Source: Antitrichia curtipendula (lineage: Eukaryota; Streptophyta; Bryopsida; Hypnales; Leucodontaceae). From it: a stretch of 64,000 nt of DNA. Position 1 is the first letter of the stretch. The number at the start of each line of letters is the position of its first letter. The stretch covers positions 2,790,001 through 2,854,000 of the forward strand of contig OX579637.1 of NCBI GenBank assembly GCA_951230915.1, read 5' to 3'. The translations under genes and the position numbers were made by a program. A model generated the notes under the pieces. The model did not search any database and had not been told where the DNA came from. It saw only the letters and a program-made list of their open reading frames with translations. Of the stretch, positions 5,561 through 53,929 are shown in pieces.

Positions 5561-6150
5561 TTTAGCGCCAGCCGTGCTAAAGTGCATATGCTATATATGT
5601 AAAATCAACAGCCTTCCATTTAGCGCTAATCGCGCTAAAATGCTTATGCATGTGCTGTAAAATGACACCATTGTACTTTAGCGCGACAAGCGCTAAAATG
5701 CATAATCATTATATGTAAAACCAACATTTGCCGTTTAGCGCTAGTTGCGCTAAATTGCATATGCATTCACTGTAAAATGAGCTGATTGCACTTTAGCGCT
5801 AGTCGCGCTTAACTACATATGCATTCACTGTAAAATGACCCATGTGCACTTTAGCACTAGTTGCACTAAAGTATAGGTTCTCTCCACTAAAGATCATCTG
5901 ATCGCACTCTAGCGCTGAAGTGCATATGTGCTCTAAGTAAAATGAACTTATTTCACTTTGGCGATAGTCGGGGTAATGTTTATATTCTGTCTATGTAATA
6001 TGACCCAATTGCACTTTAGCGCTAGTCGCGCTAAAATGCATATAGCCTCTATAGATGGTCACCCGATTGCACTCTAGCGGTAGTCGCGCTAAAAAGAATA
6101 TGTACTTGAATAATCGCTGAATTGCACATTGGCCATAGTCGTGCTATGGT
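5561..6150. repeat. 58-bp tandem array, each unit with a 21-bp palindrome
   Basis: About eleven units. Palindromes of the form TTTAGCGC-N5-GCGCTAAA start near 5561, 5619, 5677, 5734, 5792, 5850, 5908 (half), 5957 (degenerate), 6015, 6073 and 6129, so the period is 58 bp with one 49-bp step. The spacer resembles GCATATGCATTCACTGTAAAATGA. The unit at 6015-6035 has perfect arms. In the unit at 5850 both arms changed together (TTTAGCAC and GTGC-type partner), which keeps the pairing. The array ends about 180 bp before the splice acceptor of DUF7869-type copy A, so it probably lies in a 5' intron. Confidence 0.85.
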
Positions 6151-6338
6151 GCATACGTCCTTTATATCTCTTGAATTTGAATTGCAATTGAAGACTTCTG
6201 ATAATTGCACATAATTCATGATGAATATATGTTCAACAATATTTGAGAACTAATTGAGAGAAATGACGTGACTATTATGGTTTATGTTCTTTAAGAGCCT
6301 GAAAACTGCATTGGTTTACTGTGTGTTGTTTAGGTGTC

Positions 6339-9153
6339 ATGAATTCTATAGAAGATCCAGCTACGGACATGGACTTATCAGGTGATGAATTCCAGATTCT
6401 TCAGCAAATGAATGCTGGCGTTCCTGAGTGTGAAGGTATTCCGCGTCGGCTGTGGAATACGAAGTGTGTCAAGCTGTATTTTACTGAGGGCGTGCATGTT
6501 AGTGAAGGTACCTGCCACAGTGTGAACTCTGATCTTGTTCTTGGTGCAAGTGGGCCTCTCGGTGACACTCATGTATCAGTGCACATCTCAGTGTCACATT
6601 CTGAAGTGGACCTTCCAGAGGAACATGTTTACTCATTGCTAGATTGGCCTATTCAACTGGTTCATTATCGTGGAGCAAGTCTGCACAATCATGAGGCTAG
6701 GGACAGTTTCAACCGTCTACAAGCATCGCTTCTAAACCCGCCTTCTACAACATCTGGAAGACCATATGCAAGTGCCATTAGAAATCCGCCTCGTGAGACC
6801 ACTGTCAAAACAAAAGACCTCCTAACGCAGGTGTCAATTAATTTGGTGTCCAGCAAAGTGTGTTGCGGCAAGAATTGTGTTCTGCCGTTTCCTAGGGAAA
6901 AAAATTGAGCTTTTCAAGAACGCATGTATCAAAATTCAACTTTCAAGCATAGAGCTTTCATGAAGACTGATGTGCACAGAAATATTCATGAAGGTGCACG
7001 CCGAGGAAAGATGGTGACAGTTGAAGAGATAAATGTGTTTTTGCGCGCATGGATGTATATTACGGGGGTTGCTGAGTCTACATTCTATTGCTACTTCAAA
7101 TACATGAAGGATGAACGGGAAGCAAGGGATCACGGTAATACGGGGCTATTGAAGCCTAAAGAGCATACCAAACAAGCCACAGCTTCCTTAAAGTGCATCC
7201 TAGACAAGGAGGCCGATTACATGCCACATCGTACACGGACTTTGAAGGCAGGTGACAAGATTGTGTCCAAAATTCTTCTGGACTCATTTCAATGGAAAGA
7301 TCAGTTGAAGAGACCCAATGAAACCAATGCGGCTTTTGGTTTGAAGGGGATTTCAACTTTGAACTTCAGCAAGATTAGATCAACCAAGTTCCCAAAGTAT
7401 GATGTGAAGAAGCCAGGAGATAATTTTGCTCGGTATGCTACTTGTGACAATTATAATGAGCTCATCAAGGGTGCTATCAGTGGATCCCAAACTGCTATGA
7501 AGTGGTCTAGGAGGTTGAATAAGCATCTCACCATTGCTCGTGCCCACAGGGATGTGTATTACATTAACCGCGACTTGTCATTCAATTCTCCGCATGAATG
7601 TGTTACAATCATACACGACAAGATGGACCACGCAAAAACCGCTTGCCCGGTCTTTTCTCACAAGAGTAAAGAACTTGATGGCCTGACGAAGCTACTCGTT
7701 TCTATGATGGCCATGATTGCACATGGTCATGCAGATGTGCGCTACGCACATTTCGGCTTGGATGTCTTCTCGCATGACTCCAACTATACCATTGGTTCAA
7801 TGGCAAAGTTGTTGCAAGATTTAGAGTTAGCACCAAAGTCTTCTTCTCAGGAGTTGTTCACGAGTTCAAAGTCAACAAATTTATTTAAGGCCGTGCTAGA
7901 GGGTACGGACATGTGCTATGGGTCGTGACCGCCGCCGCCAAATACCTTAACTCCAGCCACGCGGCTACCGCCCATTTCAAACATGCAAATGGAAAATGCC
8001 ACTAGAGACAATAAGAATAGATATGTTTTCTGTTTTTGGTCTCCGAGAAGTCTATGTGAACTTCATGATTGTGGGTCATACGCATGACGATATTGATGCG
8101 CTATTTGAAAGATGGAGCATGGATTTGAAGAAGGAGAACTTCCCAACAATACTAGCGCTAATGAAGTCGTTCATGGATGTGGATTCCGTCCCCACTATCC
8201 CTCACCTTATTGAAGAAGTGCCCGACTTCAAGGGTTTTATAGCAGGGTCATTTGTAGATGGCGATGACATCCTTGTTGGACACACGAGACCACATCAATT
8301 GAAGTTCTATTTAGATTCAACGGGGTGCCCTGTCATGAAGTACAAACTTTTTTGCACTGATGCTGACTGGTTAGGGGAAGACGGAAGAGGCATTAAGTTG
8401 TGGAAAGAAGATGCTAAAGGACGAAGTTTGTGGCAGCGCGTTATACCTTTGCCTGTTCCGTTGAAGCCTATGAAAGGCTTGGTAGACATTGTCAAAGGTG
8501 TGATGGGGTTTGTGAAATATTGGGCCAAAATAATTCAATGCAGACGTCACCGGGGATTATCGAAGACGTTACGAGCATTTGGTGAAGTATTGGTGTGGCG
8601 TGAAGGTAGCGTTGATGGAACCATTACCTACCTTTCATAGTTTAAGGGACGGTTTTGGGCCAACTACACATATTCAAGCAAGTGAAGTGGATGAATTAGA
8701 CAATGACGGTGAGGAGCGTGAAGAGTTTGGGGAGGATGACCCATATGTTGGGCCATTGACTGGTCGTCCAATTCCATCCTTCCGAGTGGCTCAAGATTTG
8801 TTCAAAGGCTATTTTATTGCAGTTCGACACACAGATGGTGACTCTCACCTAGTTTGGATTGCAAGGGCATTGTTTGATCCAAACTCCAATCCAGAGAATC
8901 CGAATTGTGTTTTTATTCAATGCTTCCGTCCAATATCAAAGAATCAGGATGTTCAAGATTTCTACACCGGACAGGACAGCAAAAGAGGTCTACGTTGGAA
9001 GGTTGATGAAACTGAACCTCCTTTTTGGCAACATACGGATGCTCTTATGACAGCATGGAAGTCAAGGATCCAGAAAGACACTGTGGAGTGCATGATCAAG
9101 ATCCTTGCTATATAAATTGAAGTCATCAACCAAAGTTTGGCTTCATATAATTG
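6339..9153 (+). pseudogene. DUF7869-type DDE-like transposase gene, copy A (broken)
   Basis: Homologous along its length to copy B (34675-38287). The likely start is ATG 6339, just after a splice acceptor ending at 6333. Landmarks in order: an N-terminal 'ECEGIPRRLWNT' segment; 'PFPREKN' followed by TGA at 6906, where copy B has an open codon; 'MYQNSTFKHRAFMK'; 'HDKMDHAKTACPVFSHKSK'; 'MIAHGHADVRYAHFG'; a TGA at 7926; 'MQMENATRDNKNRYVFCFW'; a frameshift near 8040; 'VGHTHDDIDALFERWS'; and another frameshift near 8570. The acidic residues in HDKMD, Q(M)D/ENA and GHTHDDID suggest an RNase-H-like DDE nuclease core; that assignment is inference. Homology to copy B continues past TAA 9112 to a TGA at 9151-9153. 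At least four lesions make it non-functional as assembled. Confidence 0.8.
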
Positions 9154-9159
9154 AGAAGC

Positions 9160-9602: not shown

Positions 9603-9729
9603 GGACGACATTGCTATGTGAGCAGTGAGCAGAGAGCGGAAAGCGCAAATTTAGAGACCGCAGAGCAGCCAGAAAGTAAAAAAGTTCTTTTTTATTATTA
9701 TTTATAGATTTTATTATTGAAAAATTTGA

Positions 9730-9970
9730 ATATTTTAAAGAACATTCAAGATTCTCTAAGAAATAGTAAATTTTTATGACCTATTACTGTGGAATTAAGG
9801 GGTAAAAAAATCAGTGTGCATCTAAATTTTGAAACTTTTGATTTAGTTTAAGACCCAAGAAATACAAAATAATTAATTTTTGTGACTCATCACCGTGGAA
9901 TTTGAGGGCCCAAAAAACAATGAAGGTCTAAATTCGCAAACTTGTGATTTAATTAGAGACTTGGGTAACA
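9730..9970. repeat. Left subterminal repeats of the MULE
   Basis: A roughly 106-bp unit is repeated about twice ('ATTACTGTGGAATT' near 9783 and 'ATCACCGTGGAATT' near 9889). Related words occur in inverted orientation in the right subterminal region. Subterminal repeats of this kind often bind the element's transposase; here that is inference. Confidence 0.6.
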
Positions 9971-10569
9971 CAAAATTGAACTTATGCGAAGGATGAAGTC
10001 AAGAAAGAATAAAAGAGATTGACATTTTGAGATTGGTGCGTTTGAAGATTGAGAAAGGAGGAGGATGCGATTGATTTGAATGTAGACATTTTGTGGAAGA
10101 CAAATGAGATGGACAATGAAGAGAACTTGGTTGACCTAGAAGAAGAGGTCAAGATTTTAGGGGAATCTTCAAGGACTTTGTTGTTTCATGAGAGGATGAG
10201 AAGATTATCGTCACATCGACTACCATGGAAGGAATGGATGAAGGACCAAACAATTAGCAACATTCGTTTACTTTGATCGAATCCAATTCCAGCAAGGTCA
10301 GATGATGAGTGGAAGCCACAAGCATTTAAGAGGTTGGCACAACGGAAATCAATTTGGGAGAAAGAAATAAAAGGTTTAGGGATTAGCATATAGAGTGAGA
10401 CAGTGTGAAAAACACATGGCAACAATTATTGTAATGCAATGATTTGAGGTGAATAAAAATCATACAACATGACAATTTATTTTCCAAGGGAGTAGATAGC
10501 AAGTACATGTGAGATCAACAAATGACCAAATCCATAAGAAGACAAAGTAATCCCAAGTTGGCAATGAGT

Positions 10570-12027
10570 CTAGGTGGTAGAATGTGTCAAGATGCCCCCC
10601 TCAAGAATGAATTTAATCTCATTGAAGCTAAAGGTTGGGGCATGAATGAACAAGTTCACTTCAGGATCTAACTTAGAGACCTTGACAAAGAGGAAGTACA
10701 AATGCTTACAATGTAGAAACAAATGTCGCTTGCAGCCAAATTTGGTAATCATGTCTTTGAAGGCTGGGCAAGTGCAGTTGGAGAGGGAGCTCACTGTGAG
10801 TTGGTAAATTGATTGTGTTGGAGCAGGTTTGGACTGTAGACTAATAATACATCCAAATCCGGGGCGAGGAATCATTGTTACCTTCAAGATGGTTCCTTGT
10901 ATAGCACGAGCGGACGCAACCATTTGCATTTGCTTTGCTGATGGTACGTGGGTGGAGCGTCGCGTAGACTTGGAGTTCCTTGAAATAGGGTAAAAGTCAG
11001 GATTTGATGGAACGTCCACCTCGGAGAGGTCGAGGGTAGGAGCACAGTTGTTGAAGAGGCATGTTGGAGTGATGTGCTCTTTCTGTGGCAATTGAAAGCC
11101 GGCATTCTCAAGATTCAAGATCTCCGGGCGACTGAGGTTTGTGCCAAGCTTCACGGGCCACACAGGAGGAATAGGAGGTCTCTCCTGGTCTGCAGAGAAA
11201 TTGTCCATCCACTTGCGACGCAAGCCCTTGACACAACGCTCGATGTCATCCGGGCAGAAGAAGAACTTCTCGGGTCTTGGTCTTGCGAATGAGTAATGGT
11301 TCTAGAATCCGGAGTAGGTTGGGGCAGGGGTACTCTTGCCATTTGGGACAATTTTGGCAGTGCATTTCTTCTTGGTGACAACGTGCATAGCCCAACAAGA
11401 CTTCTTGGAATTATAAAGAAGGCGAGCAATATGCCACAATTTCTTGTCAACTTTAGATTCTTGATCGGTTGTGATGCAATGAACATCCAATCCGGTAGGT
11501 GAAGGAGGCGCCACCTCCTACGCAGATGGGAAGGACTCCTTGACAATTGTAGGGAGAAGTGTAGGATGAGATCTTGTATTTCTCTGACTAACATGGGGGC
11601 GAGAGAAATTGACGGTGTCAGGGCGGTGAGAATCTTCATCGGCTCCAATAGGAGTGTCAGGTTTGCGCTTCTGTGATCCGAAGACCTTGCCGCCCTTGAG
11701 GTGTGGATTGCGCGTGCAGAATTTGTCCTCGCCGGGCATGGTAAGGAGAACCCTCTGCAACACAGTCGGGTCACCAATTCGCTGAGCCCGGCGTTGAGCA
11801 CATCTAAGCTTGAGTTCTTCTTTGCTAGGGCCATCTCCGCTAACGCCACCTTTCAAAAATTGATGGTATTCCACAACTTGGAGGAACGCTCGAATATAGT
11901 TGTCCACAGTCGCCATGTAGAGATTGCCACCCTTGTTGCCGGACGCTTGAAGCCATTTGTTGTGAATGGATTCGGCAAGGTTGCAATTTGGCATCTTTGC
12001 AAACTCTTTGGCCATCATGATTTTCTC
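10570..12027 (-). CDS. MULE transposase, exon 2: C-terminal part with SWIM zinc finger (interrupted by TAG)
   Basis: It begins after a splice acceptor ('TTTGTGCAG', intron 12028-12115) with E-K-I-M-M-A-K-E-F. Early residues include 'NLAESIHNKWLQASGN' and 'NYIRAFLQVV', followed by 'FCTRNPHLKGG' and 'GSQKRKPDTP', typical of the region after the DDE core in plant-type MULE proteins. Near the end 'NCTCPAF...HCKHLYFLF' supplies the C-x-C...C-x-H ligands of a SWIM zinc finger. In-frame TAG codons at 11518 and 11302 break an otherwise continuous frame, and the sequence on both sides keeps the expected content. The frame ends at TAG 10570. Probably recently inactivated, unless TAG is read through. 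Confidence 0.8.
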
Positions 12028-12115
12028 CTGCACAAAGGAAAGATATAATAAGAAACTGAGAAAATAAAGAAAGAAGTAAAGACGAAAACATCTAGTGATA
12101 AGTCAACAAATTTAC
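12028..12115 (-). other. 88-bp intron of the MULE transposase gene
   Basis: Donor 'GAACTA|GTAAAT' and acceptor 'TTTGTGCAG|GAGAAA' on the minus strand. Both exons stay in phase 0 across it, joining F-I-E-L to E-K-I-M. Confidence 0.8.
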
Positions 12116-14242
12116 TAGTTCTATGAAGCCACCCCATTGTCGATGGCGGAAGTGCCAAAAGGCTAGCCAAAGCTCAAGATGCCTTAGTCCATCCTCAGAG
12201 GTGCAATTTAATGATGTCCACCATGCTTTGATAGCAAGGTACCTCGTCTCTGCCTCTAGCATAGACGAGGCATTGCGATACTGGAGGCAGAGACGCTTGT
12301 GTTGGTCTTGCAATTCGTGCTTGATATATAGCTTTGTATGCTTTTCCAAGGACTAGGTCCAATGGAAGTAGCACGTCCTCTCGTGCCCTTCAATTGGAAC
12401 CTTGGGATCTCCGAAGCCGTGGACAATGCGCAGGGCATTCCAATTGGCTTGTGCACTATCCGCCATGAATCCTTTAAAGTATGGCTTTGGGATCCCATGG
12501 CGAGCCATGACATGGTTGAGGTTATGCCAAAACAGCACTTGAGCATCTTTGTCTTTGGATTGGAAGTTGCAGCAAGCAATGGTCATGATGCGTTGGTACG
12601 TCCCATCGTAAACGTGGCAGGCCATGGTGGTCCATTTAGAGACGCGCTTGACATGGTCGAATATGATGCACGCATGCTCGAGATCCTTGCCTGGTTACAT
12701 GCGCCGAACCAAATCGACTCCACTACCGGGGCCGACCTCAGACATCTTGAAGACGAAGACTTTGTCGGCTTTATCACCTTGGCCTGGGAACTGATTTCGT
12801 TGAATGTAGGCCCAAGTACTAACTCCCCTAAGCTTAGCAATGCCATCCATGACTCCTAATCTACGCATGTATTTGAAGGTCGTAACCTTGTTGCGGAGGT
12901 GAGGAGAGTTCAACTCCTTGCAACGATCAAAGACGGGCTCCAGTTCTTCTAATGAAAGAAGTTGATGTGCATCATTATCTTCACGAAGGAGGAACTCACC
13001 TACAAAGTCTTTGCTGGCCTCAAGGACAATTTTACTGTGCGTGGCTTGGGGCATCCTCTCGACGTGCTCTTCGATGAGCGCATTGATGCATTTGCTGTTG
13101 TCTCTGCAATCACCAACCTTGACAGGGTGCCGATGGTTGCCGATATGAATGCAGCCTCGTTGAGAAGAGTTCTTGCCGTGGACGTAGAAGATCTTAGCAT
13201 CGCAAAGTTCAAGGCATTTAGGAGGCTCTTTGCAAATCCTGCATACAAGAGTGGAGGTAATTGGTGGAGGACCACCAATGGAGAAGAGATCCTTGGTAAA
13301 GCTGTAGAAGTCGGTATCGTTCACCGTAGAGGTTCGGTGAGCACGTTGAAGGTAATTGCAGTTTTGATTCTGGCACTGAAGGTGGCCAAAGCAAGTTGAT
13401 GAGCGGAACACAAGGCCAAGGTCGTTGCTAATGTTGGTGGTCTGAGTTTTGGTCCAAACATGGCCATCGTACCGCTTGTCCATGCCCTCTATGGATTTGG
13501 CTTTGGTATGAGAAGATGAGGCTCCAACCGGGGGGAGGACAAACATTCGGGTACCATCAAACCGTGGGGGGAGGAAATTGACTTCTTCAATTTTCAATCT
13601 ATCGTAATCTAACTTCTTGAGGATGTTTTTACTACCAGGCATAGAACCTAGTCTACGTAGACATTGAACAATGCAATTGGGTGGATTGGATGAAAAGGAT
13701 ACCTGAGGATTTGAAAGTTTAGGGCGAGAAAGAGATGGGGTGACAAATGTGGAAGTCTTTGATAAACGAGTAGGATTCACAAGAGGAGTAGGGCAAGTGA
13801 GTGCATCTTCATCAGAGGAATCAGACAGATCAATGATTGGCTGCACACCAGGCTCACTTTTAACTCTCACTATTGGAAGGGTGTTGAACATGGAAATAGA
13901 GGATCGGAGTGGAGTAAGGCTTTCAGTCAATACCTCCATTTGAGAATTAGTGAGTCCATAAACCCTGTATTTTCCAACGCCCAGCTCCCAAACCATTGAT
14001 CCATTCTCGTCAAGCCTAGAATTCTCATGCATGGTTACAGAAAGCAAAGATGTAGCAGGATCAAAAATCTCGCGTTCGACCCAGATTGTACTTACTTGTA
14101 AAGAAAATCTGATGCTAAGGTGAAGGACAGAGACAGATGCAAATCCATCTTCGGCTACAGGAACAAGAATGGAGACCCCAAGGCCATGCGCACGAAGCTC
14201 AGCCATCTCAGCTATTGCAGGGACAGTGGACGATGACGCCAT
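12116..14242 (-). CDS. MULE transposase, exon 1: N-terminal and DDE core (two in-frame stops)
   Basis: The probable start is ATG 14242 (MASSSTVPAIAEM); an upstream in-frame ATG at 14416 would add a hydrophobic, UTR-like leader. The N-terminal half contains an acidic 'IIDLSDSSDEDAL' patch and a Cys/His-rich segment ('CRICKEPPKCLELC', 'GCIHIGNHRHPV') that looks zinc-binding. The catalytic part runs 'NQFPGQGDKADKVFVFKM', 'FDHVKRVSKWTTMACHVYD', 'GFMADSAQANWNALR', 'ERTCYFHWT' and 'WLAFWHFRHRQWGG', the order I know from MULE transposases of mosses and other seed-free plants. The Asp of HVYD and of MADSAQ are candidate DDE residues. In-frame stops: TAA at 12695 and TAG at 12353. Divergent from the methyltransferase-like gene, so the region between them should hold both promoters. 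Confidence 0.85.
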
Positions 14243-14960
14243 CAACAAAGAGAAGGAAAAGCTAAAGTGTAGAATACAAAGGACTATGCAATCAAGGAGC
14301 ACAAGAAAGCAAATGGACAAAAGGCGAATTTGATGATCTGGACATAGAGGAGGTAGTTCAAGATTTGCAAAGAGAGGTAGTACATAAGAGGAACTCGGAG
14401 CTGAAGCATTCTGCATTATTTATGAATAATGGGTCACTAACTACTAATAGACCCTATAATAATTATAATTCTGACAAAGAATTAGAAGAAATTAGAAGTA
14501 TTCTAGATAGCGCAATCATCAGTAAAGCCGTTGGCATCATCTAGCCGCCAGGCAACTGTAATAGTCAGGTAGAATTGATGCGCACTAGTTTTTTGAATTA
14601 GAACGGAGGCAACAAATAAATAATGACATGCAATCATGCCCTACAATTGGAATAGTTGCCATATTAAGAGTGGAATAGAGTAATCAAGAGCCTTGTCAAT
14701 CTAGAAGAGAATCTTGCAGACGCCAGTTGTTATTTGGAGGACACCCTTTAATTATAGCCTACTTTATAATTGGATTAATATCTTCTTAACGGTGATATTG
14801 TAACGTACGGCTGTTAGACACCGTGAAACCCTAAACCGCATGCAGTAGCATTATGTAGACAAAATTTTTTTAGTGAGGGATCATCTTCTGTGAACGGCAT
14901 TTGATGTCGTGAGAGTGCAGTGGTGGTCTGGGGGCATTGTAGGATTTGCAAGACGCACAC
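14243..14960. promoter_or_regulatory. Divergent intergenic region of the MULE
   Basis: The start codons of the transposase (-) and the methyltransferase-like gene (+) are about 720 bp apart and face away from each other. The region contains a telomere-like 'AAACCCTAAACC' (about 14826). No unambiguous TATA box was identified. A shared bidirectional promoter is an inference from layout alone. Confidence 0.45.
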
Positions 14961-15314
14961 ATGAAGGAACCAAGCCAATGTACAGTCTCTATGGTTGATC
15001 CAGCGCAGAAGCGCAAGAAAAGAAGGGGCGACACGACTTTTACCAACTCAAAGCAGAAGAGGCGAAATGAGTTGAAGAAGAAGGAGTTCCTGAGCATAGA
15101 AGAATGAGGGACACCTTCAGACTTAAGTGATCCAGTTGAGGGGAAAGTAGGTGGTTCTTGGAGGGCAGGGTGTAAGATTCGAGTTCTTAACCTTTTGCCA
15201 ATTGAGGAAGAAGTGGAGTACACAAGTTCACGAGCAATGGCCAAGAGTGACCAGCATACGAATTTGAATCAGAATGATTCTAATGAAGAAGAAATGGAGG
15301 ACTCTGTCAATACG
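14961..15314 (+). CDS. Methyltransferase-like gene, 5' exon (basic N-terminus)
   Basis: The open frame begins at ATG 14961 (MKEPSQCTVSMVDPAQKRKK) and continues to a donor at AATACG|GTAAGT (15314/15315). The early product is rich in Lys/Arg (KRKKRR, KQKRR, ELKKK), resembling a nuclear localisation signal, and ends with an acidic stretch (NEEEMEDS). A TGA at 15105 interrupts the frame. A longer minus-strand frame over the same bases (14870-15244) has no family resemblance and is taken as a shadow. Membership in the downstream gene is inferred from strand, splice sites and position inside the MULE. Confidence 0.5.
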
Positions 15315-15422
15315 GTAAGTTAAACTCATTTGTTATATGAGCCAATGGCATTATTGATTTTTCTGATTCAAATTGTAGTCAATAGCACTTATATTCTATA
15401 ATCATGTCAAATGTGTGAATAG

Positions 15423-15828: not shown

Positions 15829-16046
15829 GTGAGTATCAAATGGTCTTGGTTTTTTGAATTTCTATGAATGCGCAAGTTTCTTCTATTGCTTGCCGGCTTC
15901 TATTCCTCATGCGTTTCACGGCTGCAATTTGCTACTCCACCAGTGCTGCCCGTGGCTCCATGATTGCAGTCTAAAGCTTTGTGCAGTTTTGCACTAGTCT
16001 CGTACAGAGTTCATTAGGGTTATAAGAGCATCGGAGGGGTGAGGTG

Positions 16047-17556: not shown

Positions 17557-17598
17557 CTACTGTGTATCTTTGTTCTAATTCATGCATTCTGTTGACAG

Positions 17599-19330: not shown

Positions 19331-19334
19331 GATG

Positions 19335-20500: not shown

Positions 20501-20509
20501 TCCGTTAAT

Positions 20510-43505: not shown

Positions 43506-43509
43506 TAGG

Positions 43510-44400
43510 TGTAAGTATCTTTAATACAAAAATGTGGTAAAATGATACAAGTTATCGTTGTAGGAAATTTTAGTATGCCGCATTTATCAATTTCTGGACT
43601 TTGGAGGAGTCCAAAAATAAAAAAGGACTAAAATCCCCCGATGTTTTGCTATCCATCTAGAAATCTCCCATTTCCTATGTATCTGGAGGTCTTCTGGAAT
43701 CAAATGATGTGGACATGCTTTGAAATCTCTAAGTTGTAACTATTCTAAAAAGTGGTTTCAATGGTGTTTGGAATTCAAAGAAATTATGTAGTTCCTAGTC
43801 CAAGATTCTTCCTTAGAAGTCTCAAATAAATCCTTGAATGTAGATTGAAGAGTTCATTTGACTGAACTGGGAGATCTTCGGATGGGATTTCAGGAATTAC
43901 CTCCTTTGATAAGGAGTTCTGCATCCACTATACAGCCTATACAACCTTTCAAAACATATCAAGAGATCTCTCGATGACAGATGGTAGAAGCAAGTATGCA
44001 CGGCCCGGCCTGCACTTGAGAATTATTAGAAGCTAGATTTCACACCTCAGTTGCTCTCCAATATGTTTTTAGTACTCGGCAACAACTTCACTGAAGACCC
44101 GGCAACCATTTCACTGAAAGAGTCGGTGAGTCCCTCGTTTGCGTAAGGCATTCCTACGTGGTCGTTGCCCTATACAACTTCATAATTTCTTGGAAGGCTG
44201 GACCCCAACATAACCATTTGTTCTTCTAACCTACCGAGAAATCTCCCGATGACGGACGGGAGAAGCAAATATGGCCGCCTCCAAAACACTTAATGAATAA
44301 CTGCAGGATACCTTATGCACCTTAGTCACTTTCTAATCTAGAAAGAAAAACTCAAGTAACTTCTAAGTTTAAAGAAAGGGGGGAGCCAAAATAACGGAAG
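43510..44400. repeat. CCGGAGATCTCCGG-type palindromes 3' of copy C
   Basis: Degenerate relatives of CATCCGGAGATCTCCGGATG near 43869, 43961 and 44231, each followed by 'GATGACRGAYGG'-like or similar sequence. Part of the inserted DNA that splits copy 2. No gene seen. Confidence 0.6.
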
Positions 44401-44791
44401 TGGTGCAGCTCAGTGATAGAACTGAAACTGCAAAGCGTAGGATTATACAAGTCACGGACTTTGGCATAGAGGATAGTCCTATTGACAGATACAAATGAAT
44501 GCTAACTCTCAACCATCTATATTTCTTGTCATTCAAAAGAACACAGGTTCAACTACAATAAATGATAAAAAATACAACGCCAACCAGAGGTTAACGGTGA
44601 CGCATCCGTTTTCAAGCACGGCGGAAATCAACTGCATGAAAGCTACATTCATCTTCTACTGTGTTATAGTCAATCATATCATCCAACTCAGCTCTGCCTA
44701 ACAGTTGCCATAATTCTACAATCATATATGAAAAGAGCACAATACAAAGATAATCTTCACGTGCCCTTTCATTTGATGACTAAAGTAGAAT

Positions 44792-44812
44792 ACATCTGGA
44801 GATCTCTGGATG
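44792..44812. repeat. CATCTGGAGATCTCTGGATG palindrome
   Basis: Imperfect copy of the copy C-associated palindrome, just 3' of the copy C coding region. Confidence 0.7.
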
Positions 44813-44842
44813 CATTCTAAACAACCTAGACCTCTAATTTGA

Positions 44843-46789
44843 TCAAGGGTCCACCTGATTTGCCCTATTCAAATTCACTAAGGCAGCTTCCCCATTCTTC
44901 TTCGGAATCGTTTGTGATTTCGGATCTACTATCTTGGACCAATTCAAATGAACTACGCAAGTTGCATCCACCCAAGTGGGGGAACTGTTTTCAACAACCC
45001 ATTTACCATACCAGCAATTATGATAGCGTAATTCCAGAATAGTTTCAGAATTATCAGGTCGCCAATATTGAAGCAGGAACTTCCCGTCATTCACATCTCC
45101 ATCCAATCTACATACAGTGGACAACGCCCTACCTAGCCAGACAGGACAGACTGCAGGGTCATCAGGTCTTAGAAGAACCCATGACCCTAGACGTATGTCC
45201 AGCCAAGGATTGAAGCATTCCAGTGGCGCTTCATTTGCCGGTCTGCAATAAGGTTCCGGGACCTCTTCATCAGGAATCACGTCCACGGAATTGACCCTCG
45301 GCCCTGCCTAAAGAACTTCATCAGGAGCCTGCCTCCAATTGTTCAGTGGCCAGAAACCTTCCACCAATTCCAAAGGACAGTTAGATAATGGCTCTTTCAA
45401 TTCACAAAGCACACGATTCTAGTATTCCACATATGGACCAAAGGCAGTTGCAAATCCCTCGCACTTAGACATCCCATTCTGCCAATACTGAATGTACTTT
45501 TCTAGTCCTACCATCATGAACCCCTTGTTCATTGTAGCTTTCTTTGCCATGTCAACGGCCTTGTCTTGATTTCCGGTGGCTTTGGAAACTTTGCTACCCC
45601 ACATAGGCTTGAACGGAACAAGCTTGGGACAGCCTAGAGGGAGCATTGCCCGGCTAAACTTGTCTTTCTTCCAGACGTATTGAGAAGGCCTGTCAGATGG
45701 TAGCCAACGTGAATCAATTGCTGACGCCTTAAATTTCATAACAGGGACCCCATCACTATCCACGTAAAACCTGGAAAGATGCATCTCCCCCAATCCAATT
45801 AATCTTGTCGTGCCACTGCAAATGTAATCCTTTACAAAGGACTTAAAATCCGCCACATCTTATATAAACTCTAGCATGAATGATAGTTCTTGGGACTGCA
45901 TGAAGGCTTTCATCAGGTCACCAACGACAAAAGTGTTCTTGGTCTTCAAGGCCTTAGACAAATGGCTGAAATAAGCTTCGATATCTTTGTGAGTATGTCC
46001 AACAAGTAGGAAACCAACTTGAATTTCATTGAAGACACCACGCGTAGTCAACAAGGACAAGAACGCCATAAGGTACTGGTTCTTGTTATCCTTAGCAGAG
46101 TTGTCAAGCTGAAGATATAAATGGTTCGGAAGAGAAGAGGCTCCAAGCCGAGTTGCTGGTTCTGTTAAGGTCAAACAATCCATACATTGGGACTTTCTTC
46201 TCAACAATGCCTCAAACATAGGGTTTGCTGGCGGAAATGGAAATAGGTCACCTGTCTCTCGAATCGGTGCACCCTCCAGTAGACGAAATAGTTTGGCCAA
46301 CGACGAAATTGTGGCATTCGAGTCTCCCGGCCAACACGATGGTGCATAGTGGGCATGTGCACCATCACTGTGACCATGAGCTACCATTCCAGTTACACTC
46401 ATTGGTATTTGCTCCAAACCTTGTGTGGCCTTCGTTGTCACGCGCATCCTTGGTAAAGCTGTTTTTGAGGTATCCATCTTATTGTGAATCACACATAATA
46501 TCTCGCGCGGATTACTTTTGGACTCCTCACGCCACGACGCATACAAGCGGCAGCAAGAAGCTTGGTGATTATGATGTCGAGTTTGTTGCTTTGTGAATTC
46601 CACAAATTCAGGACTTCCTTTGGGCAATTTAAGAAGAAATTGCTGTAGCTGGTCATACGTAGTACATTTTGCAAAAGAACTTCCAACGGGCTCAATAGAA
46701 ACATTGTTGAAGTGTTCCTTCCTGATTCTACTAATCGTTGACTGGCTAACAGAAGGAAGGCCGTAGTCAGCATTCAGCTGCATGACCAA
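44843..46789 (-). pseudogene. DUF7869-type DDE-like transposase gene, divergent copy C
   Basis: A single minus-strand frame interrupted by TAA (45860), TAG (45419) and TAG (about 45308). It parallels copies A and B at lower identity: 'IHNKMDTSKTALPRM', 'PMSVTGMVAHGHSDGAHAHYAP', 'SNATISSLAKLFRLLEGAP', 'LYLQLDNSAKDNKNQYLMAFLSLL', 'FLLVGHTHKDIEAYFSHLSKAL' and 'DVADFKSFV'. The same acidic positions are retained (NKMD, QLDNSAKD, HTHKDIE). The N-terminal segment of A and B is missing, or lies in an upstream exon beyond a splice junction near 46790. It sits in reverse orientation inside copy 2 of the ParB/FCP1 gene. Confidence 0.8.
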
Positions 46790-46894
46790 CAGGGCTTACA
46801 TATGAGCAACGAGAGCATCACCATGTAACGTTACAAAAAACTAGACAAACAGGAACTCCCAAAGTGAGAAGGACCAAATGACGCTACGGACCAA

Positions 46895-47110
46895 TCATCC
46901 GGAGATCTCCGGATGAGGCTACATGTAATTTCAATGACAAGTGTGAACTCAGAACTAACAATCGATACTTGAAAACAAGGCTATGGATGAAGCACCCGGA
47001 GATCTCTGGATGAGTGAACATGGGAATCCAATCTTCAATTAAGCAAATAAAAACTCTCGGTCTGCAATTGATAGATGAAGGTGCGTATATAGCATCCACA
47101 GATATCCAAA
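46895..47110. repeat. CATCCGGAGATCTCCGGATG palindromes 5' of copy C
   Basis: The site at 46895-46916 is a perfect 22-bp palindrome. Degenerate sites follow near 46993 (CACCCGGAGATCTCTGGATG) and 47090. They lie 5' of copy C on its strand, the same relative position as in copies A and B but with a different sequence. Confidence 0.8.
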
Positions 47111-47206
47111 TGAGGCGTCCTATCAGATTGGACGAGTCTATTCTCAAACACTTTAGGGATTGCTACATTGTCTAGTCGAATGACAACAAGAAATTGAGAT
47201 CCATAT

Positions 47207-47340
47207 CCGCCTACTATAACAGGATAAATCATTTTGTCGCCATGAAACCTTCGTGGTCAACTAATATCTTTACCGCATGAAGTGTTTGGGAGAAAATGGA
47301 AAGGCGGTAAGAAACCCGAAGGATCCCTCTCCAGCAGGTA
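47207..47340 (+). pseudogene. ParB/FCP1 gene copy 2, remnant of the ParB-like exon end
   Basis: Reads S-A-Y-Y-N-R-I-N-H-F-V-A-M-K-P-S-W-S-T-N-I-F, TGA, 'SVWEKMERR', matching copy 1 'ISAYYNRVNHFVAMKPSWSTNILGARKVWKIMGRP'. The NGQHS segment itself is absent from copy 2; about 230 codons between the 43.5-kb fragment and this one are lost or were replaced by the copy C-bearing insertion. Confidence 0.8.
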
Positions 47341-47344
47341 CCTT

Positions 47345-47605
47345 GTCAAATACAAGGCATAAAGCCGAGGACAAGGCTAATCTAGTCAAATTCAAGGTAT
47401 TATTCTATCAAGTGAATATTCAAGATATCGTGTGGACTTCCTGAAGTCCAATATGTATCCAGTTGTATTAGCTAGTTCTATTAAGGTCGAGTCAACCTAA
47501 ACATGATTGTGTAATGTGATTCTGCCAAGTCTATGAATTATGTAGTTAGGTCGGGTCGACCTAATCGTATGCTTATATCTTCTCCCCTACGGATGGATTT
47601 TGTAA
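47345..47605 (+). other. Intron remnant with two AGGTCGAGTCGACCT palindromes, copy 2
   Basis: Palindromes at 47480-47500 and 47545-47564. It corresponds in position and in number of sites to the 141-bp intron 26575-26715 of copy 1. The acceptor expected before GAG-TTT is not canonical here. Confidence 0.7.
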
Positions 47606-48968
47606 GAGTTTGTGAAGGCAATGAACGCTCGCTTCGCAATGCTCAACGTTGTGAAGTCTCAAAAAGCCTCACGAGGTAAGTATGCCAAGGAGAAGTTGAA
47701 GATAACAAATGAGTTGAAGATCATTACTGGACCTGATGATGTCTTCAACTTTTGGAGCAAAGTGATATCAAGTAATGCTCACGATGAGCTCATTGACCTA
47801 GAGACCCTCCAACCATTTAACAAAAAGACTAGGTGGAAGTCAGAGTCCGGACACTTGACCCACAAATTCTTCAAGTGGATGGGGAACCTCTCCTACGACG
47901 ACATGAAGAAGCTTGCGACGCACATCCTGAAGCAAATACGGACAAGCAACTCGGAGAAGCAAACACTCAAGCATCCGAAGGTTACGATCAAGCAGGTGGC
48001 TTCAATGCTTGAGAGTTGCTACATTCACAAGGAGTGGGTCGAGCGACGCAAGAGGAAGTATCTTGTCAAGCAGGAGCTCAACCATCTTGACCCAAACTTG
48101 GGCCTCATCAACGCATTCAACAAAGTGAATGTGGATAAATGGAGGGAGTTCAAGAGGAGTTGTTGCATCACCATCGCGACGATGAATGTCCTCCTCAAGC
48201 AACCAAAAGGGGACTATTTCAGAGAGGCCAAGCAGACCAAGGCCAAGAATAAGAAGGCTGCAGAAATATCGCCCTATGCAATCGAGTTCTTCAGAGTCTT
48301 CTTTGAGCGCCGCTTGAATTTTGTGAAGCACATTGCGGTCGCATGCTATAGGCCATACAATATTGCAGTCGACAAGAACTCACCATGGCCGTCTAGAGCG
48401 TGGACCAAGAGGACGGCATCGGAAATAAAGTTTGGAATCCTTGATTTCCAATATGCTCCAGTGGTTCTCAACAAGGGCAATTGTATGCCACTGATGTCGT
48501 ATTTCTTTTTGGCTATGAAGTCCTTATAGAAAGCAAAGCAACCTCGACTAGAAGAGATCCTGGCGTGGCTCTTTATCTGCTCCAATTTAGTGGAGCAGAA
48601 TCAGGCTTTGCACTACGTGCAAACAAACGAAGTCCTCAAAAACTTCAAGATGGACTTCACGGACTACTGGCCCGTGAAAGTTGAACGCATGGGAGACTAC
48701 TCCTCTAACAACAGCGAGGCAACTGAGAAGATTTATCTCACGTTCTTGCAGAACCCCAAGAACGCCATCATCATGACTCCAAAGCCAGCATATTAAGCCC
48801 CTAACACAGACGTCTTTAGAAAGCCCCGGGCTTACAATGAGCTGAAGTACAGGATTCACAACATAGAGCTCCAAATGGAGATCTACTTGAATATCCTCAA
48901 GATTTGGCATTGATGGGAGGAGTGTAATGTCAGTATTTGTAGACTTGAAGTTTACTTGTGCCACAATG
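47606..48968 (+). pseudogene. ParB/FCP1 gene copy 2, central exon
   Basis: Begins E-F-V-K-A-M-N-A-R-F-A-M-L. Colinear with copy 1: 'LTHKFFKWMGNLS', 'HPKVTIKQVASMLESCYIHKEWVERRKRKYLVK', 'ATMNVLLKQP', 'SPYAIEFFRVFFERR', 'LAMKSL', then TAG (48526) at the same residue as copy 1. After it come 'QPRLEEILAWLF', 'DYWPVKVERMGDYS' and 'IYLTFLQNPKN', a TAA (48796), a TGA near 48912, and the conserved donor 'CACAATG|GTGAGC' at 48968/48969. Confidence 0.8.
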
Positions 48969-49631
48969 GTGAGCATGATTGTCTTATCGGATGAGTTTTC
49001 GGGTTTCGGTGACGTATTGGATGTGTCACGTCGCGTGTCATATATGACAAGTGTCGAGTATGAGTGACAAACTTGTCGTATAAGGCCATGAAAAATGGTT
49101 GAGATAATTTTAGGATTCACTATAATTATGAATGTAAATTCAGAATGTAATATGTGTTCGTTAAATTGAGACACATCATTACAATGAGACCTGAATACGT
49201 CAAAATCGTAATTGGGAGATAATTTATTTGAAAGTCAACTTAAAGTTGACTTTATTAGACGTCACAAGGGGTCTACTAAACGTCGCTTGACGTTTGTTTG
49301 TCACAATGTTGCCATGCTCGGCAGAGCACCCCTGATGGTGAGTTCTTTTTTAGGTTGAATCGACCTAAACGTGGACTCTCTGCATTCAACGTGTCTTATA
49401 ACATTTGTAAAGCATAGACGGATGAATAGGTCAACTCGACCTAAGTCAGCAAATATCGGTCCCTCAATTTGTAATGCAGTATATGTACATGGATAAGGTT
49501 GACCAAGCCGAACTGAGTAGGTATTGCATTTTAGTTGTAAATTACTCAATGTCCAGGTTTTAGATCAAGTCGACCTAAAATGTCAATGAATATGCCTATC
49601 TGTGTAGCTGATTGTCATGTATGTGCTGCAG
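48969..49631 (+). other. 663-bp intron with three palindromes, copy 2
   Basis: Donor GTGAGC, acceptor 'GTGCTGCAG|ATGTTG'. AGGTCGAGTCGACCT-type sites lie near 49349, 49425 and 49558. It also holds an unrelated hairpin AAAGTCAACT-TAA-AGTTGACTTT (49231-49253). The equivalent intron of copy 1 has only one site. Confidence 0.8.
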
Positions 49632-50140
49632 ATGTTGGATCTTGATGTCTTTACTGTTGGTACCACCGACAAGTTCAATAGCTGGACAGCTACCGCTGAA
49701 CTCGGGAAATCACTAAACAAGAGTGATTTCCTTCCAAAGGGGTACTTTGTGGACGAAGAATTGCACCTACGGAAGAGTGGAGGTCTTACAATACCCGCAA
49801 CTTTGAAGAGGAAGAGAAAGTGGGCATGGGATTTGTCAATGCCTCAGCCTTCTAAAGACAAACCATCTTCTCAAGCTAGTCCGTCTCATGGGGATCTTGT
49901 AGATTTGTCTTCTAATGAAGATGAGGAAGAATACGACTACGGCCTCGACAATCTATAGGACGAGCAGTTGACGCCTATCCAGCTCTCTCATTGTATTAGG
50001 GGATCCTCTACGTTGTCTGGACAACCAGAAGAGTTGCATCCCATTGAGATGCAGCCATCTAGCACGTCGTTGTCGAGTAGAGAGGCCTTGCCTTGGGAAA
50101 GCGCCGGGCTTTTGGCTGCAAGTAGACTTGGCTAGAAAAT
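49632..50140 (+). pseudogene. ParB/FCP1 gene copy 2, Ser/Pro-rich exon, first part
   Basis: 'MLDLDVFTVGTTDKFNSWTA', 'NKSDFLPKGYFVDEELH', 'LKRKRKWAWDLS', an acidic tract (SSNEDEEEYDYG), TAG (49956), 'DEQLTPIQLSHCIRGSS' (copy 1: 'TEQTTPTVFGSQSIRGSS') and a second TAG near 50132. Homology is then cut by the tandem-repeat insertion. Confidence 0.75.
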
Positions 50141-50164
50141 AAAGGGGCCCGTGATTCAACAAAA

Positions 50165-51375
50165 ATGTGTATGCATGCTCATAAAATCTTCATAATGCAC
50201 CATAAACTCCCAATATAATATCACATGCTTGTAGAAAATAGTTGGAGTTGATCATAAACCGAATAGTTCCCTCTTAGGGAGATTCCGTCACTAAAATGAA
50301 TGCCACGGCCGCTCTAGAATTCCAAATTGAGAATGAAACATCTCTCTAAAAAGCTAACAACAATATCTACAAACCCTCCAAATTCAACTCAAACTAACAT
50401 ACTGTCCGACTTTTATAGTCGGTCAGAGTTTGCTCTCTTCAACTCCAAGGCAGCTCACCACTACTCTTCTCCCAAGACCATAACTCTCACATGAAAACTC
50501 CAAATTGATCGTGTGATGTCTCCATAGAAAGCTAACACAATAATCTACACAAATACTAAGTTTCAACTCAAAACAAAATACTGTCCAACTTCTACAGCCG
50601 TTCAAAGTTTTCTTTCTTCAAATCAAATGTAGCCTCTCACTACTTCTCCTCTAACCCTATAACTTTTGCATCCTAACTCCAAATTAAGAGAATGATAGCT
50701 CTTTAGGAAGATAACATCTAGATACACACTCTCATAAAATCTCAAAGCAAAAAAACTTCTCACCCAAAAGTTATGAGCCCTCAAAAACTCTGTCTTCTCA
50801 CTCCATGACAATTATCCATCTTTCACTCCATCAAGCATAACTTCCACAAAAAAACTCCAAATTGAGCGAGTGATAGGTTTTTGGAAACCTCAAAACAAGA
50901 TAAACAAGCTCACAAAATTTCATTACCAAACTCTTCTGTACACAAAAGCTCTCCTTCTCCAAAGTTTCGGGTCACCTTTAGCAAAACCAAGAGGAAGAAG
51001 AAGGCCCTCCACCTTAACTTCCACCTCACCCCCCATCCCCTCCACCTAAGCAAATGCCACATGTCACTAAAGGCCATATGGACCACAATTTGTCCATTGA
51101 CCACCCCTTTTGTCCCATAACTCTATCCTTATCTCCTACGTGGCGACTACAAGGCCTTCAAATCTCTTTTAAAATCCAAAAGAAAGATAAAACAATCTTT
51201 ATCTTTCTAGTTAACTTTTAAAATCAACAAACAAAGTTTAAAATGCTTTCAACTAAAGAAATTAAAGAACTAATGCCTAATGGTTGTCTAATAGAGGTAA
51301 AAAAGGTAGAATCTTCTCCATGTGGATCTTTAGACTCTCCAAAAACCCCTCTAATTTGACAACATTTAGTTATTT
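50165..51375. mobile_element. About 1.2-kb insertion carrying a 178-bp tandem array, in copy 2
   Basis: Absent from copy 1. It contains four units marked by TCCAAATT(G/A)AG at 50321, 50499, 50678 and 50856 (steps 178, 179, 178). Units also share 'ACTGTCC(G/A)ACTT.TA.AG.CG' and 'ACTCTCAC'. The remaining sequence is unrelated AT-rich DNA. No clear terminal repeats found, so its class is unknown. Confidence 0.7.
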
Positions 51376-51379
51376 TTAC

Positions 51380-52015
51380 ATAGTATATGTATACACGATG
51401 CGACACCGTCGCGTTCTACCACTCGAAGGACAATGGAAAAAAGGGAGAAACACAAAGATTAAAATGGAGAGGCTACAAGATCGAGCAACAAACATGAAGA
51501 TGCATGCCCAATAGAATAAAACAATGGAGCAACTTTCAAGCTGTATCATGGCACTATTGTCGAAGGTTGACAACACGTAGCGTCAGAGGTGCTTTGCCAC
51601 TGGTGATGGTTTTGCCAGCCTAAGTACCTCCCCAATTGTTGCTGCAGGGTCAGGCCTCGAGTTTGTTGAATACCAAAGAGTTGAGTTTGGCAGAGCCAAT
51701 TTAGTCCACATTCCCGTCAGTGAATCTTCTTCCTGCTCCTAGTTTTGTCATGCCTCCTCCTCCAACTGCAAGCGTCGTTGCTCTTCTTCCTCCACTAGTT
51801 GTTGGTGTGCCTCCTGCTGCTCCTTTTGTATTCATGCCTCCACCTCTTCCTTCTAGAGACCAAATGCTAGACATTCCCCCACCACCTCTAGAGACCAACA
51901 CCGCAATTGCTGGTGCTTCAAAAGTGGCTACTTACGTTGATGTGCCCGCAAGTGAGGCTCATGCAGTAGACGTCGGCATGGTTGAGACGTCGTGTGCAGA
52001 TGCTTCCGCAGGTTG
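51380..52015 (+). pseudogene. ParB/FCP1 gene copy 2, Ser/Pro-rich exon, second part
   Basis: 'MERLQDRATNMKMHAQ', TAG, 'NKTMEQLSSCIMALLSKVDNT', TAG: the coiled-coil segment of copy 1. Further on, 'NLLPAPSFVMPPPPTASVVALL' and 'DIPPPPLETNTA' form the Pro-rich part, ending 'CADASAG' at a donor 'CCGCAG|GTTGATC' equivalent to that of copy 1. Confidence 0.7.
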
Positions 52016-52247
52016 ATCACTCAATGTCGTTTGTATAGTTTAGGTCGACTCGAGCTGATTTGAATGGTAGATCGGACTTATTTGTGCATATTTATGAAGC
52101 GAAAATATTTTTTAGAATGTGAACTTAAGGTGGACAGAACTACAGAGTTCAAAATTTTCAAAATTATGTATTATATTGCCTACTACTAGGAAATCTAATA
52201 TATCAAATTCTTACGGGTTATTTTCTTGTGAATTTATGAGTTACAGG
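52016..52247 (+). other. Intron with one palindrome, copy 2
   Basis: Contains TTTAGGTCGACTCGAGCTGA (52039-52060), matching the position of the palindrome in the copy 1 intron 23813-24060. Acceptor 'TGAGTTACAG'. Confidence 0.75.
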
Positions 52248-52527
52248 CATTGTTGATGTTGATGTTCTTCCTTCATCGCCCAAGCATCAGTCGTCACATA
52301 GTCTGCTTCTTGTGTTTCCCAATGACGTTCTTGTGGAAGAAATTGTGCCTACTACGCAAGCAGACACTATGAGTCCAAAGCGTGAATTTGCTCTGACTGT
52401 ACAAGAGGACGTTGTGGATGATGACTTATCGTTTTTGGACGGCAATGTCATCGTGGTCAAAGTTGCAGAACCCCACGTCGAGGTGCAGGAAGACCTTAGA
52501 ATTGTAACTAAATCCGCTCGCGAGAAG
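52248..52527 (+). CDS. ParB/FCP1 gene copy 2, linker exon
   Basis: Starts in phase with 'GIVDVDVLPSSPKHQ' and includes 'FPNDVLVEEIVPTTQAD' and 'DDDLSFLDGNVIVVKVAEPHVEVQED' before the donor 'GAGAAG|GTATCT'. Acidic, with no lesions; longer than the copy 1 exon. Confidence 0.65.
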
Positions 52528-52635
52528 GTATCTCTTACATGCACTGTTCTTGTTGCCTTTTCCTCAGTATTTACAATATCGTTTTGTGCTAGTTCAAGGT
52601 AGTAACTGGCTGCACATTTATCCGTTTGAGAACAG

Positions 52636-53423
52636 GAATTGAATTCTCCTTGTCCTCGTGGAGGGATGTCGGAGGAGGTCAAACGTCCATTGAGGTCCAG
52701 AGTGGTTGTGCGGTGGCTCAATGTTGTCCTGGACCTGAATGGGATTTTATGTGGGTCTGAAGAAATCAAAATCAAGGGATGGTACAGTCACGTAGGCAAT
52801 TCCTTGTGGGAAAGAAAGAAGCTTACGTCATGCCCAATTGCTTGCAGTTCTTGAGTGAGTTAGCAAAGATTGCCATCATCTCAGTGTGGAGCTCCATGAA
52901 AATGTTCAACACTGAAGGTGTTTACAAACATCTTTTTGATGGTATAAAAATGCCCTATCTTGTACTCGGGCAAGAGTCCTGCACAACATTGAAGTGCAGG
53001 GATGGTTTTGGAAAGATCACGACTTTCAAAGAGCCCGTTACAAATAAGGACCTGTTCCTTAAAAACCTAAGTACTTTGTTCAATGGCTCTCTAGGGAATT
53101 TTACGTCCGAGAGTACCATCATAGTGGACAACAACCCTTGTAAGTACATTATGAACAAGACAGAGAATGTCATTCTCCCTGACACTTAGTTGAACAAGAG
53201 AAATGGTCCGAAGGACACGTTTCTCTTGGACATCTTCTTTCCCTGGTTTAGGTGTCTTCACGCTGCTCGAGATGAAATGTTGAAGTCGTTTAGGGAGAAT
53301 AGCTGGGAAGATGGGATTGCGGATGCTCTGCGACAAACGAAGTTGTCGAGAGTACAACTGGCTAATGGAAGCAATTCAACTGTGGTTGAGTCTGAGATAG
53401 GCCAACGGGTTGTTCTTTTTTAG
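52636..53423 (+). pseudogene. ParB/FCP1 gene copy 2, FCP1/HAD-like exon
   Basis: 'NSPCPRGGMSEEVKRPL', 'WLNVVLDLNGILC' (motif I, D-L-N as in copy 1), a frameshift with a small deletion near 52790, 'NCLQFLSELAKIAIISVWSSM' (motif II), 'LGQESCTTLKCRDGFG', 'TIIVDNNPCKYIMNKTENVILPDT', then TAG (53187) where copy 1 has Trp, and 'GPKDTFLLDIFFPWF'. Motif III reads V-D-N-N instead of V-D-D-S, a further loss. The homologous frame ends at TAG 53421. Confidence 0.75.
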
Positions 53424-53929
53424 TTCAAATTAGCTATACTTTATCCACGCTAGGTGTCGGGCTTCATCATTGGCAATGCAATTTAGCTCGCATCGACTTG
53501 ATTTGTACATAGTTTATGAATTTTGTGCTCTTCAATTTTGTGTAGTATATTGTTCACGGAAATAAAACGGAAATACTTCTTCATCATAAGTTGATTTGTA
53601 TTTTCCACTTCACCTCTTGGTTGTTGAGGTTTAGGTTGGATCGACCTCATTTGTAGGTCTTGTATGTTTAGTTCATGGCTTGTATGCGTATTGTGGGTCG
53701 AGTCGACCTTTTCTAAGACATTTTAGGTCGAGAGACGTCTTCCATGTTGTGTCTTGGTTGAGTTGAATGCATCTAAGTTGTTATCGATCAAGTTGGCCCC
53801 TTCAATCTAAGTCATTTCAACTCTACGCATCCTAAAATGGTGGCTCTTCTCCTTGCCAAGAGTTTTGGATATGTTTTCCTACCTGCACTTTTATTGACAT
53901 GAGTTTTGTATTTAACTTTCCGTCTCAGA
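53424..53929 (+). other. Spacer or intron with AGGTCGAGTCGACCT-type palindromes, copy 2
   Basis: Sites near 53476 (TAGCTCGCATCGACTTGA, degenerate), 53629 (TTTAGGTTGGATCGACCTCA), 53694 (GGGTCGAGTCGACCTT) and 53724 (half). Ends in an acceptor-like 'CTTTCCGTCTCAG'. Confidence 0.7.

Follow-up and report, generated by a model that had tools for sequence, protein, structure and literature searches.

The closest described system we found is that of Ectocarpus, in which a transposon of about 21.5 kb, Sola1-1_Ec32, carries an opposite-strand gene for a protein with a ParB-like part and a predicted N4/N6 methyltransferase domain (2025; PMC12477816). The main text of that study suggests that ParB-methyltransferase proteins bind and modify their own element, and the strings 'palindrom' and 'subterminal' do not occur in it (PMC12477816). 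Here we report a sequence analysis of a 64-kb stretch (the window) of contig C5 in the 400-Mb genome of the moss Antitrichia curtipendula; most of the window is made of nested mobile elements, and it holds giant two-gene DNA transposons, probably resembling Sola1, with one gene for a DUF7869 protein and another for a ParB-like/FCP1 protein. As in Sola1-1_Ec32, these are giant DNA transposons with a ParB-like gene opposite the candidate transposase, but the moss protein has an FCP1/NIF-like phosphatase domain where the Ectocarpus protein has a predicted methyltransferase domain. A preliminary description of this DNA had found a private palindrome in each gene family and knew of no described system with such a layout. 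That statement is partly wrong, since one published Sola1 transposon already carries a ParB-like gene on the opposite strand, albeit with palindromes unmentioned in the main text (PMC12477816); our literature searches on ParB with FCP1 and moss, on Physcomitrella palindromes and on ParB in transposable elements or methyltransferases brought up nothing closer. As far as the literature searched shows, the new part is the palindrome system found by both genes and in gene-less elements.

Other known systems share some of these features. In bacterial ParB-parS systems a symmetric palindrome, the 16-bp parS, is repeated several times close to the gene. The moss locus resembles them in its ParB fold and its several symmetric palindromes near the gene, but it is a eukaryotic transposon with 21-bp dyads around a 1-bp centre. 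In CACTA/EnSpm transposons, subterminal repeats are bound by TnpA. Those repeats, too, are short motifs iterated in both orientations and private to a family, whereas the moss elements end in AACATT, make a 4-bp target-site duplication (TSD), and have their sites by genes and in introns. CACTA/EnSpm subterminal repeats were rejected as an identification on the terminal inverted repeat (TIR) AACATTATATTC, which begins AACATT and not CACTA, and on the 4-bp TSD. Sola elements make 4-bp target duplications. A Physcomitrella Sola1 is entered in a review table (PMC9033089), and the curated bivalve Sola1 described in another text average 5.4 kb, so giant size is not general to Sola1 (PMC10294476). 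A 2025 survey of the ParB-CTPase fold describes divergent proteins outside segregation, often on mobile elements and with domain fusions, with sulfiredoxin as the commonest eukaryotic form; 'transpos', 'plant' and 'moss' do not occur in its main text (PMC12704722). The moss protein is similar in combining a divergent ParB fold, a mobile element, and a fused domain.

Borders and genes of the two-gene elements

The window holds one complete two-gene element, made up of ParB/FCP1 copy 1 (P1) and DUF7869 copy B. It was inserted in a piece of a further element whose uninterrupted relatives, loci L024 and L029, provide the empty site: their homology to the window stops at 21306 and restarts at 38952, with a 4-bp overlap. 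Its features are as follows, with the strand given where one was assigned.

21307..38951: complete two-gene element, P1 plus DUF7869 copy B; TIRs AACGTTATATTCATTAAAATGAGAG / AACGTTATATTCATTATTTTAAGAG, TSD CATT
21623..28152, minus strand: ParB-like and NIF/FCP1-like gene P1, with in-frame stops
28186..28866: P1 5'-flank palindromes of TTCAGGTCGA-n-TCGACCTGAA type, from palindrome scans
26617..26707: P1 intron 1, two palindromes (26617, 26687)
25152..25172: P1 intron 2 palindrome, ATCAGGTCGACTCGACCTGAT
24002..24022: P1 intron 3 palindrome with CTC core; the 48 bp around it are 87.5% identical to copy 2
22557..22577: P1 intron 4 palindrome
34671..38287, plus strand: DUF7869 gene B, candidate transposase, broken by a small insert at 35721-36444
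34035..34471: DUF7869 B 5' flank, four palindromes

The insert in gene B (35719-36445) is about 690 bp long with 37-bp inverted ends (89%) and divides copy B relative to DUF7869 copy A. Between the two genes lies a tandem array with a 44-bp period (29467-29950).

Four complete relatives occur elsewhere in the genome, each with the ParB-like gene on the left and the DUF7869 gene, divergently oriented, on the right. They measure 22.2, 20.2, 30.4, and 18.1 kb, have TIRs AACATTATATTCAAAATTTTGGGAG, and are flanked by the perfect TSDs CTGG, AATT, ATAA, and TTTG. The five large elements are thus 17.6, 18.1, 20.2, 22.2, and 30.4 kb long, and a 4-bp target duplication is found in all five as well as in the gene-less element L030, described below. 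The pairing of the genes extends across the genome. The pairing figures are lower bounds, since our search of the genome gave scores for 140 ParB candidates out of 810 and for 127 DUF7869 candidates out of 1488: among the 127 listed DUF7869 exons, 67 lie no more than 25 kb from a listed ParB exon, and the genes are divergent in 61 of these 67 pairs. Random placement of 121 DUF7869 exons on the same contigs gave 8.2 expected pairs, 2.2 of them divergent (the six exons on contigs C173 and C218 were excluded, and the length of C8 was estimated). The preliminary description had treated ParB/FCP1 and DUF7869 as two mobile families; they are instead the two genes of one element. One region (C2:55496001-55526000, L016-L018) has ParB exon-2 fragments with no DUF7869 match and stands outside the element counts. 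Contig C5, at 37 Mb, carries 89 of the 140 listed ParB exons and 72 of the 127 listed DUF7869 exons, and may be a sex chromosome or another chromosome rich in transposable elements.

The ParB-like protein has a ParB N-terminal fold, a match that comes from the structure model only; there was no PDB sequence match, and the window exon had no Pfam match. Its gene also encodes the FCP1/NIF-like phosphatase domain. Named plant relatives of the proteins are from the moss Physcomitrium patens, and one named match is to an uncultured cyanobacterium assembly. In the viral contigs searched there were no confirmed relatives of the ParB-like or the DUF7869 protein, two pattern matches being unconfirmed, and the literature searched held no paper on DUF7869.

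A 21-bp dyad shared by both genes

The preliminary description had listed four unrelated palindromes, and exact and tolerant scans of the window found all four at or near the places it gave. Two of them, TTTAGCGC and the AGGTCGA type (TTTAGGTCGA-n-TCGACCTAAA), share a 21-bp dyad, TTYAG-(CGC or GTC)-GA n TC-(GCG or GAC)-CTRAA, which occurs as TTTAGCGCGA, TTCAGCGCGA, TTTAGGTCGA, and TTCAGGTCGA, each with the matching opposite arm. The two are thus versions of one site in which the outer and inner parts are fixed and positions 3 and 6-7 vary. The other two, CATCCGG and GGAACC, are distinct motifs, which likewise occur across the genome far more often than their controls.

All of these patterns far exceed their controls. 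In the window, TTTAGGTCGA-n-TCGACCTAAA has 30 matches (two of them TTTAGCGC sites, and one site counted twice); 40 half-sites shuffled with unchanged composition averaged 2.8 matches and never exceeded 9. CATCCGGAGATCTCCGGATG occurs at three places with up to 2 mismatches and at five with 5-6, including a weak one at 24703 away from DUF7869 copy C, and GAACCCCGCGGnnCCGCGGGGTTC occurs at six places with 1-7 mismatches. Genome-wide, with the reversed pattern as control, we counted 399 exact TTTAGCGC sites against 0, 1036 AGGTCGA-type sites against 2 (2 mismatches), 436 CATCCGGAGATCTCCGGATG sites against 0 (2 mismatches), and 92 GAACCCCGCGGnnCCGCGGGGTTC sites against 0 (3 mismatches). The listed TTTAGCGC sites form paired clusters with about 10 kb between them. 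Among the first listed places, 9 of 12 TTTAGCGC clusters and 24 of 43 GGTCGA clusters have a listed DUF7869 or ParB exon no more than 4 kb away, where random placement gives means of 0.03 and 0.94; this clustering speaks against a random distribution through the genome, an outcome that the preliminary description had named as its refutation.

The dyad recurs at both genes. We scanned nine ParB 5' flanks for palindromes de novo; ParB identity class had guided the choice of six, and the other three were partners of DUF7869 loci. All nine contained the dyad, with 1 to 7 sites each (L041 had one only), compared to a mean of 0.13 palindromes in shuffled flanks. We then compared the core class, CGC or GTC, between the two genes of 13 two-gene elements, a non-random selection of about five lineages that comprises four TTTAGCGC matches, three AGGTCGA matches, four ParB identity classes, and two from the window; L038 and L039, which lack a listed nearby DUF7869 partner, were excluded from the pair count, as were L025 and L029. 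The core is the same at both genes, about 10 kb apart, in 13 of 13: in all 12 elements whose two genes both have flank sites and, through its introns, in the thirteenth, C1a. Seven of the partner flanks were retrieved blind to their sequence, and in all seven the core agreed. The third base followed in most of these: its majority was concordant in five of the seven partner elements, and the element on C173 had a T/C mix at both genes.

The sites mostly keep to the non-coding DNA inside the elements. The four complete elements hold 28, 24, 20, and 29 TTTAGCGC-type sites, all within their borders: in the DUF7869 5' flank with a 58-bp period, in the ParB 5' flank of three of the four, mostly spaced by 71-103 bp, and in ParB introns 1 to 3, which we located through homology and splice signals. 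The intron-1 site starts 8 nt into the intron in both C2a and P1. Across six elements, 6 of 117 sites touch coding-aligned stretches, which make up 34% of the length; in each of five elements one such site is by position the intron-1 site, the query frame overrunning the splice site, and C1b has a second. As the preliminary description had noted, homologous introns of ParB copies 1 and 2 keep palindromes while the rest has diverged, with at least one in each copy in the four introns seen. Its picture of sites confined to the introns and flanks of particular genes mostly stands, apart from a good copy-C site at 44793, on the 3' side of that gene, a cluster at 20135-20453 that belongs to the further element, and some genome-wide sites in gene-less elements. 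Likewise, the palindromes are private, although to a two-gene transposon rather than to a gene family.

It had also claimed that the arms vary while staying paired. Within the TTTAGCGC family the support is weak: the 70 unique sites show 8 complementary changes affecting both arms, where shuffling gives 2.8 on average (p 0.0035), but four of those eight represent a single variant. Between families it is clearer. Such paired variation can be explained by a constraint on dyad symmetry, by template switching from arm to arm, or by both. In the 58-bp direct repeats of the DUF7869 5' arrays (L006-L007, L012, L009-L010, L014), the five-base centre is inverted in some units, TAGTC versus GACTA, hinting at recombination between arms. 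One-sided changes (L005-L015, L021-L022, and the window A array) preserve G-U pairing on the element plus strand by 35 to 11 at DUF7869 and 23 to 5 at ParB, a bias that may mean little given how many of the copies are inherited.

Among eight GGTCGA sites picked from the listing, five have a DUF7869 or ParB exon no more than 3 kb away. The other three lie in short gene-less elements: one of 427 bp holds 4 sites, one of 687 bp holds 7, and one of 329 bp holds 2, and the surrounding 5.3-5.7 kb held no further sites. These elements consist of little beyond terminal repeats and a palindrome array: L030 has ends AACACCATATTCATTAAAATGAGAG and TSD AAAG, L031 an imperfect duplication (CTTA/CTAA), and L028 decayed ends. 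In all three the main palindrome alternates with a second one, AAACCTTTCA...TGAAAGGTTT. Judged from their layout, the gene-less elements are the strongest sign that the array may work as cis DNA for a protein supplied by other copies.

Other mobile elements in the window

The remaining palindromes lie in the following features.

5561..6148: DUF7869 A 5' flank, array of 10 TTTAGCGC palindromes, mostly at 58 bp spacing, 0-7 mismatches
6339..9154, plus strand: DUF7869 gene A
9603..19620: insertion within the A element; the A-family homology on its two sides shares a 9-bp overlap, CATAGGTCA
16050..17552: a gene's 5' flank and what looks like its intron 1, with six palindromes resembling GAACCCCGCGGnnCCGCGGGGTTC
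19621..19994: A element right end, TIR CTCCCAAAATTTTGAATATGATGTT, 93-94% to four other copies
19996..21306, resuming at 38952-41108: piece of the further GGTCGA-type element, 81-86% to L024/L029
20135-20453: four palindromes of that further element
43155..54617, plus strand: ParB/FCP1 copy 2 (P2), split by element C
47481, 47545, 49349, 49425, 49559, 52039, 53482, 53630, 53692: P2 intron palindromes
44930..46795, minus strand: DUF7869 gene C, nested in P2
44793..47012: CATCCGGAGATCTCCGGATG sites on either side of C, at 44793, 46896, and 46993; weaker ones at 43865, 43957, 44232, and 47093
58688..58712, minus strand: P2 element, probable terminal repeat with 7 of 25 positions mismatched

DUF7869 copy A is a member of the TTTAGCGC family, with a ParB remnant immediately left of the window; the right end of its element, at 19994, is displaced by the 10-kb insertion. 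We call that insertion MULE-like, a putative label drawn from its 9-bp repeat and the preliminary account. Its open reading frame at 12698-14419 had no Pfam match, and the methyltransferase-like label earlier given to the gene beside the GAACCCCGCGGnnCCGCGGGGTTC sites was not confirmed. Across copies of this MULE-like family (window 16050-17552 and contigs C1, C3, C4, C5, C6, C8, C9, and C10), three positions, separated by about 234 and 735-789 bp, carry three different perfect palindromes; counted by eye, 15 of 24 listed two-mismatch places are symmetric and stand for two site types. Near the P2 terminal repeat, inverted repeats of about 100 bp (75%) flank a 3.5-kb stretch (54931-58423) that seemingly parts the P2 end from 58688.

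What the palindromes may do

We think the chances slightly favor the palindromes being family-private docking sites for an element-encoded dimeric protein, in two-gene transposons resembling Sola1. DUF7869 would be the transposase; the ParB-like/FCP1 protein is encoded on the opposite strand, and each family scatters its own symmetric palindrome in the non-coding DNA by both genes. The docking protein would be a dimer encoded by the element itself, the ParB-like protein being the likeliest candidate (with the palindromes as parS-like loading sites) and DUF7869 the alternative; once bound, it may label the DNA of its own element and regulate expression or mobilization. Where two families have different cores, the difference extends to both arms and to both genes, which would be expected of sites that track one trans factor. 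A more specific version, which we regard as doubtful, is that this transposon lineage has its own parS-like system, in which a ParB-fold protein loads at family-private palindromes in introns, promoters, and gene-less satellites of the element, distinguishes its own DNA, and concentrates the transposition machinery, so that divergence of the palindromes would insulate families from one another.

Several observations weigh against the docking-site interpretation. The structure model of DUF7869 is poor (pLDDT 60) and gave no Foldseek match at E <=0.001, so its role as transposase is proposed from element structure only. The third base is discordant in the P1 plus B element of the window and in its close relative, the C4:17.01-Mb element; in both, TTCAG predominates in the ParB flank and TTTAG in the DUF7869 flank. 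Agreement of the core between genes is partly due to co-inheritance in only about five lineages; even so, co-inheritance still needs the core copies in an element to change jointly, on both arms. The C1a ParB 5' flank has no sites, none were seen in the intron-4 region of the TTTAGCGC family, and none lie near the termini (the outermost in C2a being 2.6 kb inside one end and 3.9 kb inside the other), making a direct role at the ends not obvious. Finally, the unrelated MULE-like insertion has a palindrome family of its own, so private palindromes may occur more widely than a single system based on ParB would imply.

The preliminary description had offered binding sites, splicing or hairpin signals, and small-RNA sources as candidate functions. 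Element-specific binding sites survive as a candidate on this analysis, whereas splicing is disfavored: gene-less elements carry the array, which favors a role in cis at the level of DNA. We therefore consider it improbable that the palindromes act as RNA, with hairpins in introns or leader introns steering splicing or feeding small-RNA silencing. It is true that sites inside the ParB gene are intronic by homology, one only 8 nt into intron 1, that good 3' splice signals precede the start codons by eye, such that the 5' arrays may sit in leader introns, and that two-sided complementary changes exceed the shuffle (8 against 2.8). But the array is retained where there are no genes, and one-sided changes read on the sense RNA favor wobble pairs at DUF7869 (35 to 11) and not at ParB (5 to 23), a weak point given the many inherited copies.

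Template switching between arms perfects quasi-palindromes. Together with tandem amplification it might have produced these arrays with no function at all, and the strong periodicities (58, about 100, and 71-73 bp), the occurrence of TAGTC and GACTA centres in one array, and the MULE sites at near-fixed places, each with a different perfect palindrome, all fit such a neutral origin. We give this explanation only a small chance, since single intron palindromes outside tandem arrays persist between ParB copies whose aligned exons have 66-77% nucleotide identity, a common core is found at both genes about 10 kb apart, and the dyad is in nine of nine flanks. Also unlikely, in our estimate, is that a DNA methyltransferase encoded by the element recognizes the palindromes and so marks the DNA as its own, along the general lines proposed for the ParB-methyltransferase proteins of algal transposons. 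A ParB-methyltransferase protein is described in the main text on the 21.5-kb Sola1 element (PMC12477816), and by eye P1 has a motif-I-like string, FAGSKFTCAAM, and the palindromes contain TCGA, GCGC, or GATC. That string was seen by eye only, however, and no methyltransferase family appeared in NCBIfam for the window reading frames given, in the Pfam matches of 23 homologs, or among PDB sequences; six of the 23 matched Pfam Tugs (best 0.00036), which is unexplained and was set aside.

If the palindromes are docking sites, these moss elements offer a testable cis-trans system in plant giant transposons, with two linked genes, a defined 21-bp site variable at a few positions, numerous natural variants, and very short gene-less substrates. 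Such a system could show how co-resident transposon families separate their machinery, and could assign a function to eukaryotic ParB-like accessory proteins.

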